From positions 1-33,491 of the forward strand of contig DATLAJ010000058.1 in assembly GCA_035527515.1 (NCBI GenBank): a stretch of 33,491 nucleotides of DNA, written 5' to 3'. The translations under genes were made by a program, and so were the position numbers. Below, piece after piece: positions 3,176 through 20,920 of this stretch (position 1 is the stretch's first letter; the number at the start of each line of letters is the position of its first letter). This DNA comes from a bacterium. GTDB lineage: Bacteria; B130-G9. The notes under the pieces were generated by a model. The model worked only from the letters and a program-made list of their open reading frames with translations. It was not told the origin of the DNA and did no database searches.

Positions 3176-3305
3176 AGCGACTTCCGGCTGAACATTCATA
3201 GGCAACTTCGGCCTTCTCTAAGGAATCGTTCGGAGATTATGGCGAATATGCTATCTCATCTAAAAGCATTTGCCTTTCTTGCTGAATTATGTAAGGTCGG
3301 GAATC

Positions 3306-4019
3306 ATGGATGAGACTGTGCTCCGGGACAGGAAAAGGTTGACCGTTTTCGTGGGCGATTACGGGAGCGGCAAGACGGAGGTGGCACTCAACTTCGCTCT
3401 CGTGTTAAAGCGGCATGAGGAGCGGGTCAAGATCGTTGACCTCGATATCGTCAATCCATATTTCAGGACCCGTGAGGCGGCCGGCGTTCTTCTGGCGGCC
3501 GGCATCGAGCTCATAGCTCCGACCGGCGAGCAGACCTGGGCCGACCTGCCGATCGTCCTGCCCAGCGTCGCGGGCGCGGTACACGATGCCAGCGCCTCCG
3601 TCGTGCTCGATGTGGGTGGCGAGGCGGCCGGCAGCCGGGTGCTCGGCTCGCTGTTCGACAGTAAGGATGAGATTGATTACGATCTACTGGCCGTGCTCAA
3701 CGTCAATCGGCCCTTCACGGCCGACGTGGACAGCGCTGAGAGTGTCCTGCGGAAGATAGAGGATGCGTCCGGACTTCGGGTCACGGGGCTTGTGTCGAAC
3801 ACTCATCTGTTGGGTGGGACGACGCCGGAGATGGTGCTGACAGGCTACGAAGTTGCAGAGTCTCTTGCCAAGAGGCTGGATGTTGATGTAAGGTTCGTTT
3901 CTGTCGAGAAGTCGGTTGCCAAGGAGCTTCACAGGGCCTCTTTCTCGGCACCGATTTTCGTGATAACAAGATATGTCTTGCTGCCCTGGGAACTCACCGC
4001 GGCCGCGACAGCAGGATAA
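3306..4019 (+). CDS. P-loop ATPase (MinD/CobQ/ParA-like) heading the vor operon
   Basis: 237 residues from the ATG at 3306, preceded by AAGGTCGGGA; an in-frame TTG at 3270 is less likely. Walker A GDYGSGKTE lies at residues 17-25. KIVDLDIVNPYFRTREA follows at about 45-62, the nucleotide-switch region of SIMIBI-class (MinD/ParA-type) ATPases. Near the C-terminus, SVEKSVAKELHRASF is a further conserved-looking stretch. It ends 20 bp before the ferredoxin gene, so co-transcription with the 2-oxoacid:ferredoxin oxidoreductase is very likely. The role is not established: it could assist Fe-S insertion, complex assembly or cofactor loading. Those roles are inferred from operon position only. Identification of the ATPase fold is firm. 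Confidence 0.8.
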   Translation: MDETVLRDRKRLTVFVGDYGSGKTEVALNFALVLKRHEERVKIVDLDIVNPYFRTREAAGVLLAAGIELIAPTGEQTWADLPIVLPSVAGAVHDASASVVLDVGGEAAGSRVLGSLFDSKDEIDYDLLAVLNVNRPFTADVDSAESVLRKIEDASGLRVTGLVSNTHLLGGTTPEMVLTGYEVAESLAKRLDVDVRFVSVEKSVAKELHRASFSAPIFVITRYVLLPWELTAAATAG

Positions 4020-7159: not shown

Positions 7160-7266
7160 GAGGCTGGGTCATAAGTCCGTTTTGCCTGTGTAGGGGCGAT
7201 TCACGAATCGCCCTCGTCTAATCCGATCGGGCACCTTATGGGCGGTTCGTGAACCGCCCCTACACG
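7160..7266 (+). repeat. Palindromic dispersed repeat, related copy inverted at 19858-19950
   Basis: The unit begins with a degenerate GAGGCTG...ATAAGTC end. It then has GTGTAGGGGC, a hairpin GGCGATTCACGAATCGCC, a unique spacer, a second hairpin GGGCGGTTCGTGAACCGCCC and a closing GCCCCTACAC. Bases 7160-7251 match the reverse complement of 19858-19950 at more than 90% of positions. Just upstream (7081-7159) are two imperfect copies of a GTTGGCGGTT...CGTGTAGG phrase. There is no coding capacity; it is probably a non-autonomous mobile or REP-like element. Confidence 0.85.
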
Positions 7267-7632
7267 ACGTCGATGTCCTTCTGAAGAACTGCGGGCCTTG
7301 CGGTCTTCTATTGGGTGATTCTCGTGTGCGAAGTTACGCCGAGCTCTTTTCTGGCCGCTTCTGTGTCCTCTGCTATATGCCGAAACTCGGAGACGAGTCC
7401 GTCCACAATCTTCGCGACATAAAGCCGTCTTTGGCGGATTTCATCTCCTCTCGACACCTGCTCGCACGAGCCGGTGGTTCTCCCGACAATGACAGCGGCG
7501 TTATCAACCAAATGGACGACTGGCCATTTGATCAGAATCCTCAATACACATTACGCTTGAATCTGCATAACAACGTCGCAAGAAGGTGCTTTCAAATGCA
7601 TGGACAGAGTCAGTGTCATCTGGGTTCGTTGG
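7267..7632. other. Gene-free stretch with only doubtful ORFs
   Basis: Nothing convincing is encoded. A minus-strand frame 7308-7544 (78 codons) ends with a charged, helix-like EFRHIAEDTEAARKELGVT segment that looks protein-like, but its first half does not and no ribosome binding site is evident. It may be a relic of a small gene, for example of an addiction module like the one next door. The plus-strand frame 7311-7715 runs antisense into the nucleotidyltransferase and looks random. Confidence 0.3.
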
Positions 7633-18820: not shown

Positions 18821-19603
18821 ATGAGCGGCGGCAGAATTGCGCGCTGTCTTCTGGCGTTCATATTCCTGTTCGCCTTGTCGATCGGGCTGCTCTCGTGCGC
18901 CTCAACCAGCAAGATGCAGACCCTCAGCGCCAAGACCGATGAGGCGAACTTGCTTGCGACCGAGAACCAACAGAATCAGGAGCGACTGAGAAACGATCTG
19001 AAGTTGCTGGAGGGGAAGGTTGAGGAGCTGTCTAGGCAGGCGCGAGTTCGAGACGCGGAGACCAAACAGGGGCTCAAGGAACTTACCCAGCGACTTGACG
19101 AGATTTGTGCTTCGCTTGACGACGTGTCCCAGCAGCAGGAGGCGATTCGTGCGGCGGTGCTGGACCTGGAGGACATGATCAGCAGCCTCTCTAAGAAGGA
19201 CACAGACAATAACAAGAATAGGTCGCGAAAGCGCATATTCGCGGCGGCCAGACAGGACTACAACAGCGGAAACTACCGATCGGCCATGATGGGGTTCAGG
19301 AACTATATCGCTGCCTACCCGAATAGTTCGGCGGCCGACGACGCCCAATACTGGGTCGGCGAGTCGTTGTCTGCCACCCAGCAATACAAAGAGGCGATCA
19401 AAGAGTATGAAGGCCTGCTTCAAAAGTATCCCAAGAGCGACCGGACTGCGGAGACGCTTCTCAGGCTTGGGATGTGTTACCAACGGATTGGTCAGCAAGA
19501 AAAGGCCGCCAAGTTCTTCACAGACGTCTCGAAACGTTTCCCCGACAGCAATGAAGCCCGTCTTGCCAAGGCGCAGCTCGGTAAGCAGAAGGAAGCTGAT
19601 TAA
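18821..19603 (+). CDS. cpoB: Tol-Pal-associated coiled-coil/TPR protein CpoB (YbgF)
   Basis: 260 residues, with GAGG 8-11 nt before the ATG. The signal sequence ends in GLLSC, so this version is a lipoprotein (C26), whereas E. coli CpoB is soluble in the periplasm. Residues ~35-125 form a Gln/Glu/Leu-rich coiled coil (LATENQQNQERLRNDLKLLE), the trimerisation region of YbgF. Residues ~140-255 hold three TPR-like repeats beginning FAAARQDYNSGNYRSAMMGF and continuing with KEAIKEYEGLLQKYPKSDRT. CpoB links outer-membrane constriction with peptidoglycan synthesis at division in E. coli; the same role is inferred here. An 8-bp inverted repeat (AGGCCGCC/GGCGGCCT) just downstream is a poor terminator candidate. 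Confidence 0.9.
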   Translation: MSGGRIARCLLAFIFLFALSIGLLSCASTSKMQTLSAKTDEANLLATENQQNQERLRNDLKLLEGKVEELSRQARVRDAETKQGLKELTQRLDEICASLDDVSQQQEAIRAAVLDLEDMISSLSKKDTDNNKNRSRKRIFAAARQDYNSGNYRSAMMGFRNYIAAYPNSSAADDAQYWVGESLSATQQYKEAIKEYEGLLQKYPKSDRTAETLLRLGMCYQRIGQQEKAAKFFTDVSKRFPDSNEARLAKAQLGKQKEAD

Positions 19604-19707
19604 GAGGCCGCCTTGACGTATCCGCCGCAGGAGACGGGCAACGCCTTTCAACGGGCGGCCTTGGGAGGGTTCTTGGTGAGGGTTTTCCTGCTGTTATCGC
19701 CGACTAA

Positions 19708-19950
19708 AGAGGCTGTCCAATAAGTCAGGTCCGAGGTTGTGTAGGGGCGGGGCTTGTCTCCGCCCATCTATATATTCGGGCAGACACAAGGCCTGCCCCT
19801 ACATGTGGCATACCCCGCTGCGTCATCCCCGTAGAAACCGACTTATGGGACAGCCTCCACGAACCGCCCCTAAGGTGCCCGATCGGATTAGACCAGGGCG
19901 ATTCGTGAATCGCCCCTACACAGGCAAAACGGACTTATTGGACAGCCTCT
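19708..19950. mobile_element. Composite MITE-like element with perfect 19-bp terminal inverted repeats
   Basis: AGAGGCTGTCCAATAAGTC at 19708-19726 is matched exactly in inverse at 19932-19950, and a third, slightly changed inverse copy lies at 19840-19857. The part from 19858 to 19950 is the inverted relative of 7160-7251. The part from 19708 to 19857 has the same plan with different inner hairpins: TGTAGGGGC, two palindromes, GCCCCTACA. No transposase is encoded. The right end touches the stop codon of the next gene. It may be a non-autonomous element that needs a transposase in trans. Confidence 0.82.
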
Positions 19951-20920
19951 AAACCAACAGGCTCCTGACCTCGTCCGGGTCGATAGGAACCACGGCTAGC
20001 TCATAACTTGCCCCTCCCTGAACCACTTGAACATTAGCCTCGTCATGCTGAGGGGCATCGCTGTATCTGGCGACGATGGCAGCGGCCTGCCGCATCTCAT
20101 CGGGGGAACAGGGAGTGGTCAGAAGCCCTGTTGGCCCGACGTAGCCTGAGACCCTGAGAACCGCATCAGACGCGACAGCCAAGCGCTCGATCGCATCGTT
20201 CTCGGCCTCGCTTCTCCCGACGACGAGGGTAGCGGCGTCACCGAGTCGCACGTGTCTTCCAAGCCCCAAGAGTTTGAATAGGCGCACTGACGGGGCAGGG
20301 TCGGTCTCGTAAAGGCGACTCAAGCGGCGTGCGTAGCCAGGCTCAGTTAGTTTGCATCCCCCGGCGGGGCTGGGATAGCTCGTTATACCGAACTCTTGAG
20401 CCAGCAGCATCTGCCTCTGCCGCCCTCTTCCTGAGATGTCGTAGAGCCTCGCTGTGTCCAGCTTCTGCTCCCTCTGAACAAGTATGGGAGGAAGGAGTTT
20501 TGCTGAAAGCGGCCTTAAGATGTAATCCTCGTAGCCCGAGAGTTTTGCCACGATGTGCAGCGACTGTCTGTTCTGGGACATCGGCCTTTGGCCAAGGACC
20601 TCGCCGGAGAAGATGAAGTCGCAGCCCCGCTTCTGCATCAGCTTCCCAGCCTGCCTGAGCATGAGCGCCTTGCAGTCGATGCAGGGGTTCATGTTCTTGC
20701 CATAGCCATACTTGGGATGAGGCAGCATCGCGAGGTATTCGTCCGTAACGTCGAGAGTCATAAGCGAGACGCCGAGCTGGGCCGCGGCCTCTTGGGCCCA
20801 GGCCGTGCCAAAAAAGGGAGAGGAAAACGAAACAGCCACCACTTCGAGGCCGAGTCGCCGAATTGCCTCGACCGCTAACATGCTGTCTAGCCCGCCGGAA
20901 AAAAGCCCTAACGCCCGCAT
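19949..20920 (-). CDS. PP-loop ATPase related to tRNA thiolation enzymes (ThiI/MnmA-like)
   Basis: 323 residues from the ATG at 20920 (AGAGGGAAC upstream); a longer frame to 20959 adds non-homologous-looking residues. The PP-loop GLFSGGLDS at residues 4-12 binds ATP for adenylation. NPCIDCKALMLRQA (about 80-93) carries a CxxC that could handle sulfur. GEVLGQRPMSQNR and the PSPAGGCKLTEPGYARR block mark the MnmA/ThiI-like family. The C-terminal part, with LLGLGRHVRLGDAATLVVGR and EN, resembles the NFACT/DUF814-type RNA-binding module attached to some of these proteins. It is therefore probably a tRNA-modifying enzyme, with exact target unknown. The gene is last in a long minus-strand series, and its stop codon lies at the border of the inverted-repeat element. 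Confidence 0.8.
   Translation of the reverse strand: MRALGLFSGGLDSMLAVEAIRRLGLEVVAVSFSSPFFGTAWAQEAAAQLGVSLMTLDVTDEYLAMLPHPKYGYGKNMNPCIDCKALMLRQAGKLMQKRGCDFIFSGEVLGQRPMSQNRQSLHIVAKLSGYEDYILRPLSAKLLPPILVQREQKLDTARLYDISGRGRQRQMLLAQEFGITSYPSPAGGCKLTEPGYARRLSRLYETDPAPSVRLFKLLGLGRHVRLGDAATLVVGRSEAENDAIERLAVASDAVLRVSGYVGPTGLLTTPCSPDEMRQAAAIVARYSDAPQHDEANVQVVQGGASYELAVVPIDPDEVRSLLV

Follow-up and report, generated by a model that had tools for sequence, protein, structure and literature searches.

Several described systems come close to the element analysed here. According to the portions of the publications covered, IS1272 and TnSha1 of the IS1182 family use stem-loops without a sequence consensus as targets, TnSha1 occurs as multiple insertions in one hairpin in both orientations, and with both elements the stem-loop is deleted and no target duplication arises (PMC5678879, PMC4923244). 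In the covered part of one of them, loop duplication is drawn only as pathway c of the IS1272 model (PMC5678879). Insertion sequences (IS) that target REP sequences are described as inserting at the axis of the REP palindrome with direct repeats, as in the case of ISRm22 (IS4 family), and the families named in that source, as far as covered, are IS3, IS110 and IS4, with IS30 in a comparison (PMC1525189). GTAG REP, BIME and REPIN sequences, in the parts of the sources covered, have a GTAG foot, a hairpin and inverted doublets and are linked to Y1 transposases, or RAYTs (PMC3733652, PMC2817692, PMC3116915). Finally, ordinary bacterial MITEs are outlined as non-coding elements of 70-300 bp with inverted ends and a transposase presumed to act in trans (PMC3733652).

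The element under study lies in a window of 33,491 nucleotides, which is the whole stretch of DNA analysed, and is a composite. Relative to these partly covered sources, the composite and its relatives resemble IS1272 and TnSha1 in having IS1182-family ends and hairpin targets (13/42; the composite itself is below the hairpin threshold), and are unlike them in having an exact 4-bp duplication in 13/42, in 6 of which the target is also a hairpin loop. The present family, IS1182, differs from those described for REP-targeting IS, and REP is also the element's cargo. The repeat units share the GTAG foot, the hairpin, the inverted doublets and a possible link to Y1 transposases with GTAG REPs and REPINs; unlike in the REP, BIME and REPIN structures described, inverted ends of the DDE type surround the doublet. 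Size, inverted ends, non-coding body and a transposase presumed to act in trans are as in ordinary MITEs, as outlined in the source, whereas the two-family composition and a third, internal end are not.

Layout and insertion site of the composite

Two converging genes face the composite with their 3' ends: a TPR/YfiO-like gene (end 19603) and a minus-strand ThiI/NFACT-R_2 gene (end 19949) (Table 1). G001, a genome of the same genus, has this gene pair joined by ...GCCGACTAAACCAACAGG... with a single TAAA and without the element (L211). Therefore, we conclude that the composite represents a single insertion, with 4 bp duplicated. Its own TAAA target forms 2/8 pairs and is not a clear hairpin. 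At 19949-19951, the TAG stop of the minus-strand gene is completed by the last base of the element; the G001 empty site also has TAG there.

Table 1. Features of the composite element and its borders (window positions)
Feature	Position	Strand	Remarks
TAAA, target duplication on left	19705-19708		single TAAA at the G001 empty site (L211)
Composite MITE, single insertion unit	19709-19949		241 bp; based on target duplication, empty site and RNA fold
Left terminal inverted repeat GAGGCTGTCCAATAAGTC, IS1182-type end	19709-19726	+	matches the end pattern
Unit 1, assigned as whole family-A MITE, 149 bp	19709-19857	-	antisense to the query used; similarity to L020, L045
Family-A REP-type doublet: GTAG-hairpin, linker, hairpin-CTAC	19741-19802		inverted repeat I1
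Internal end copy, right end of unit 1	19840-19857	-	1 mismatch/18
CACG (other strand CGTG), 4-nt loop of family-B hairpin, A/B junction	19858-19861		junction recurs at other loci
Unit 2, assigned as terminal part of a family-B MITE: half hairpin, whole hairpin, arm, end	19858-19949	-	similarity to L032, L016
Intact family-B hairpin GGGCGATTCGTGAATCGCCC (19896-19915), then CTAC	19896-19919		seen in sequence
Right terminal inverted repeat, perfect complement of left	19932-19949	-	
TAAA, target duplication on right	19950-19953		

The end pattern at ≤3 mismatches has 3 matches in the window, against a mean of 0.02 in 100 shuffles. The RNA fold of the 241-bp composite has a z of -8.34, none of 200 shuffles being equally stable, and the element contains none of the listed ORFs (80 aa or more). 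Being short, without a transposase gene, multicopy and flanked by duplicated TAAA, the composite has the features of a MITE.

The sequence-only reading had described perfect 19-bp terminal inverted repeats, an internal inverse copy of the end and two units built on one plan, and had proposed comparing the copy borders for target duplications. At these borders, TAAA is found on both sides of the composite and once at the empty site in G001. The inverted ends are perfect, at a length of 18 bp; as the empty site shows, A 19708 and T 19950, read as a 19th base pair, are part of the duplication. The internal copy is present but not identical, with 1/18 bases differing. The shared plan holds for unit 1, which consists of GTAGGGGC, two hairpins and GCCCCTAC, whereas unit 2 starts at the loop of a hairpin (CACG AACCGCCCC...) and is therefore missing half of that hairpin as well as a GTAGGGGC of its own.

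MITE families, IS1182-type ends and REP-type cargo

In the host genome, GAGGCTGTCCNATAAGTC at ≤2 mismatches has 62 matches, compared with 0 in the reversed control, so that the case raised against the sequence-only reading, namely that no other genomic copies have these ends, falls away. Read with their flanks, the end copies form several MITE families with common ends and differing bodies (A, about 149 bp; B, about 255 bp; C, 172 bp; plus others). Unit 1 matches family A with 98.6% identity to L020 over 147 bp and 97.3% to L045 over 149 bp, and with 99% over positions 1-149 of the query used; unit 2 matches the terminal 92 bp of family B, with 98.9% to L032 and L016 over 92 bp. From these comparisons, we assign units 1 and 2 to two separate MITE families with common ends. 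In relatives, end matches numbered 2 in G001 (same genus, 83% complete; each with 2 mismatches), and 58 in G002 and 27 in G003, both of the same family as the host, with 1 match under the reversed control, in G003.

Other copies were seen in different states. The 62-bp doublet of 19741-19802 is also present at C71 (L234), next to a family-A arm. L045 contains, at 3221-3447, a 227-bp B/A chimera joined at a common GCCACAT with both ends intact. At 7160-7275 of the window lies a cut-off family-B copy with a left end (4 mismatches), a whole doublet and no right end; it directly follows the hairpin arm GTAGGACGCGGGCTTTCT and is a second loop-type insertion in the window.

Full-length relatives with a transposase, for which the sequence-only reading had proposed a search, were found and are of the IS1182 family. 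Two lie in genera sister to the host's, an 1801-bp element in G002 (L154; ends with 1 and 2 mismatches to the pattern) and a 1780-bp element in G003 (L153; ends with 3 and 4 mismatches), and two with these ends lie outside the host family (L126, 1651 bp; L105, 1775 bp); all four have IS1182-family transposases. When public genomes were scanned for the end, 83 stretches were returned, in Bacillota and many MAGs, and at L052 an IS1182 protein adjoins such an end. The proteins of L154, L153, L126, L105 and L052 all score above the NCBIfam IS1182 cut-off (L154, 302.7 bits against 270). Judged by their sequence, the ends of the composite are those of IS1182-family insertion sequences.

Searches with PF13751, PF05598 and PF01609 gave no match in the host MAG, which is 95.6% complete, multicopy IS being known to break assemblies. 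Because the host MAG shows no IS1182-type transposase, its elements are classed as MITEs. PF13751 is present in 14/60 genomes (host included in the 60), G002 and G003 among them. Another DDE family as the origin of the ends was rejected: PF01609 has no match in the host and the relatives' proteins are IS1182 by NCBIfam. In G002, exact end copies lie within about 100 bases of the tips of contigs C23, C121, C122, C152, C179, C194, C210, C211 and C239, which is what a multicopy IS interrupting the assembly would be expected to produce.

Unit 1 and the whole B element each enclose a GTAG-hairpin/hairpin-CTAC doublet. The GTAGGGGC hairpins are REP-type repeats, with a GTAG foot, a hairpin and an inverted doublet, and are also found without MITE ends. 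We fetched 20 further host loci at hairpin matches away from the 62 end matches; 12 contain the doublet by pattern. Because 10 of these 12 have no end at ≤4 mismatches within about 250 bp per side, we conclude that doublets also occur without MITE ends. Some doublets (L224, L234) have family arms and are truncated MITEs.

In G022 and G045, both outside the host family, a Y1-transposase-type gene contains the GTAGGGGC doublet in frame, read VGAGLVPA (L136, L137), so that the repeat is part of the very gene presumed to move it. Against Pfam Y1_Tnp, the G022 gene scores 22.6 bits (cut-off 23) and the G045 gene 37.9 bits; with the NCBIfam REP-associated model, the G045 gene scores 64.8 and the host gene L047 25, both below the cut-off of 80. 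In view of the scores of 22.6 against 23 (Pfam, G022) and 64.8 against 80 (NCBIfam REP-associated model, G045), the name RAYT for the G022 and G045 genes is our own reading. L047 (G000:C146:60182-63526) is the host's one Y1 transposase gene (PF01797) and is IS200/IS605 by NCBIfam (73.3 against a cut-off of 55); its flanks hold other GTAG repeats, GTAGCCGTGTG... and CTACCCATGG..., which differ from GTAGGGGC. The host Y1 transposase was dropped as a mover of the GTAGGGGC hairpins since the repeats flanking L047 differ from them.

Target sites and probable nesting

For the analysis of target sites, 42 elements (23 from the host, 19 from two sister genera) were picked by hand from 69 candidate pairs. 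The 27 pairs left out were alternative pairings within a locus, the duplicate locus L035 and weak-end pairs (L011, L027, L036, L175, L179, L181, L182, L187, L203); L203 and the outer pair of L198 were left out despite an exact 4-bp duplication. The criterion for a hairpin target was a 4-nt loop bordered by at least 6/8 pairs, a slack of ≤2 nt on either side being allowed. An exact 4-bp duplication is present in 13/42 elements (expected 1/256) and absent from 29/42. Similarly, 13/42 elements have a hairpin-loop target, compared with 3.7% of random positions drawn from the same loci as the elements (p=2e-9), and 29/42 are below the threshold. Duplication and hairpin coincide in 6/42 elements, while 7 of the 13 with an exact duplication, the window composite among them, are below the hairpin threshold. 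In the host elements alone (n=23), 9 have the duplication and 5 the hairpin.

The clearest loop duplications include L199 (CCATGGGT-TGCC-[element]-TGCC-ACCCATGG), L200 (GGGCAGGC-CTTG-[element]-CTTG-TGTCTGCCC), L019 (GCGGGCT-TTCT-[element]-TTCT-AGCCTGC) and L153, the IS itself (GTGGGCT-TTCG-[IS]-TTCG-AGCCCGC). In all four, the loop is kept on both sides of the element. For 12/117 ends, a GTAG is placed exactly 16 nt further out, before GTAGGG-type and GTAGCC-type arms alike, a count made after inspection. The REP-flank patterns were chosen after the flanks had been viewed, so the flank-pattern test is descriptive.

Outside the host family, 18 elements were paired in 68 of the 83 public stretches, the 15 of AUK292 and Zod_Metabat.233 being left out as already counted. 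Here, 6/18 are hairpin-centred (p=3e-5) and 2/18 have an exact 4-nt duplication (L063, Zixiibacteriota; L112, Thermoanaerobaculia). Exact loop duplication in a hairpin is thus seen under three lineage labels: the host family, Zixiibacteriota (L063) and Thermoanaerobaculia (L112). The three full-length Bacillota copies of this set (L052, L105, L117) showed no hairpin target; a short Bacillota element, L114, is hairpin-centred. At some loci the flanking 4-mers are inverted and not direct (L012, CTTG/CAAG; L154, GGAA/TTCC; L172, TCTA/TAGA; also L072, L097 and L114). Our guess is that such elements landed in both loops of one doublet and that the middle was lost.

In the window, unit 1 is followed by CACG-AACCGCCCC, which is the loop and one arm, on the other strand, of the B hairpin GGGCGGTT-CGTG-AACCGCCC, of which there are 32 exact occurrences in the host. 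The A/B junction at CGTG is also found at C108 (L033), where it is exact and A has the opposite orientation, and at C34 (L015), where it has 3 mismatches to the pattern and the other B half is kept. At all three host A-in-B sites, a single B half remains beside A, and because of this the CGTG duplication is not seen there. By analogy with L200, the CGTG loop was probably duplicated at these sites. L200, from a sister genus (G003), is a complete nest in which the inner element has CTTG on both sides and lies inside the A-type doublet of the outer element, the ends of which are diverged. In the window, both outer ends have CAATAAG and the internal end CCATAAG, which is a hint at most.

Simple adjacent insertion of A beside B was rejected, TAAA being absent at the internal junction. 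The sequence-only reading had considered modular growth of non-autonomous elements by nested or adjacent insertion; growth by nested insertion is favoured by the A/B junction at the B loop, the two further loci and the L200 nest. In addition to that idea, the outer element appears to have lost one of its halves, and structure seems to guide where insertion takes place.

Proposed assembly of the composite

We consider it likely that the composite is a non-autonomous MITE moved in trans by an IS1182-family DDE transposase, and that its structure reflects nesting of A in B, loss of half of B and targeting of hairpin loops. The starting point would have been a family-B MITE with a REP-type doublet. 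Next, one of the B hairpins would have received a family-A MITE in its 4-nt loop (CGTG/CACG). After nesting, the left ends of the outer and inner elements always point the same way; a deletion between these like-oriented left ends of B and A, with loss of one B half, would leave the structure seen in the window with the outer TAAA duplication intact. Alternatively, transposition may have used the outer end of A together with the outer end of B, which would have the same appearance as the deletion product. The A+B product, with one end of each, would lie in a TAAA target duplicated on both sides. The B element with its doublet, the entry of A into the loop and the final state at TAAA are based on comparison of sequences. 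The transposase probably acts in trans on the MITE. If, as the target sites suggest, it favours hairpin (cruciform) loops and duplicates the loop, REP doublets would therefore be cargo as well as landing pad, and the elements would nest in one another. Every MITE appears to bring along sites where others of its kind can land, growing by self-nesting. On balance, we lean towards the more general proposal that an IS1182-type transposase inserts in cruciform loops and duplicates the loop, as in pathway c of PMC5678879, and that MITEs enclosing REP doublets are put together as elements self-nest and their ends re-pair.

Homologous or microhomology recombination between A and B elements, with no insertion of A into B, is an unlikely origin of the composite. 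Such chimeras exist, the 227-bp copy at L045 passing from B to A at GCCACAT being an example; however, the junction in the window coincides exactly with the outer end of A on one side and with the B loop on the other, and the same junction is present at two other loci, at one of them with A reversed. We give very little credence to movement of the whole element by a RAYT (Y1 transposase) via the GTAGGGGC hairpins, in which the IS1182-type ends would be passengers. The paired copies are bounded by GAGGCTGTCC ends and not by the GTAG foot, with 4-bp duplications there in 13/42, and other repeats flank the host Y1 gene; these observations stand against the occurrence of GTAGGGGC doublets without ends in the host, the doublets inside Y1-transposase-type genes of two genomes outside the host family, and the presence of one Y1 transposase gene in the host. 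Finally, the strong fold (z -8.34) and the position between the 3' ends of two converging genes would fit hairpins kept for a host function, for example as a two-way terminator between the genes ending at 19603 and 19949, with mobility being secondary; as the same gene pair occurs in a same-genus genome without the element between, we regard this as very improbable.

In a literature search of partial coverage, mostly titles and abstract openings, no IS1182-type MITE was found that combines enclosed REP doublets, duplication of hairpin loops and self-nesting. The reading that we favour is an IS1182-type MITE system with REP cargo and, most likely, structure-guided self-nesting. If this reading is true, REP doublets and MITEs would be parts of a single system, with REP serving as cargo and as target alike. 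Moreover, the sequences would be evidence that a family in which IS1272 is known to delete hairpins also has a loop-duplicating mode. In total, the host nests, the complete nest in a sister genus and the empty site would form a readable record of how composite non-autonomous elements are made.
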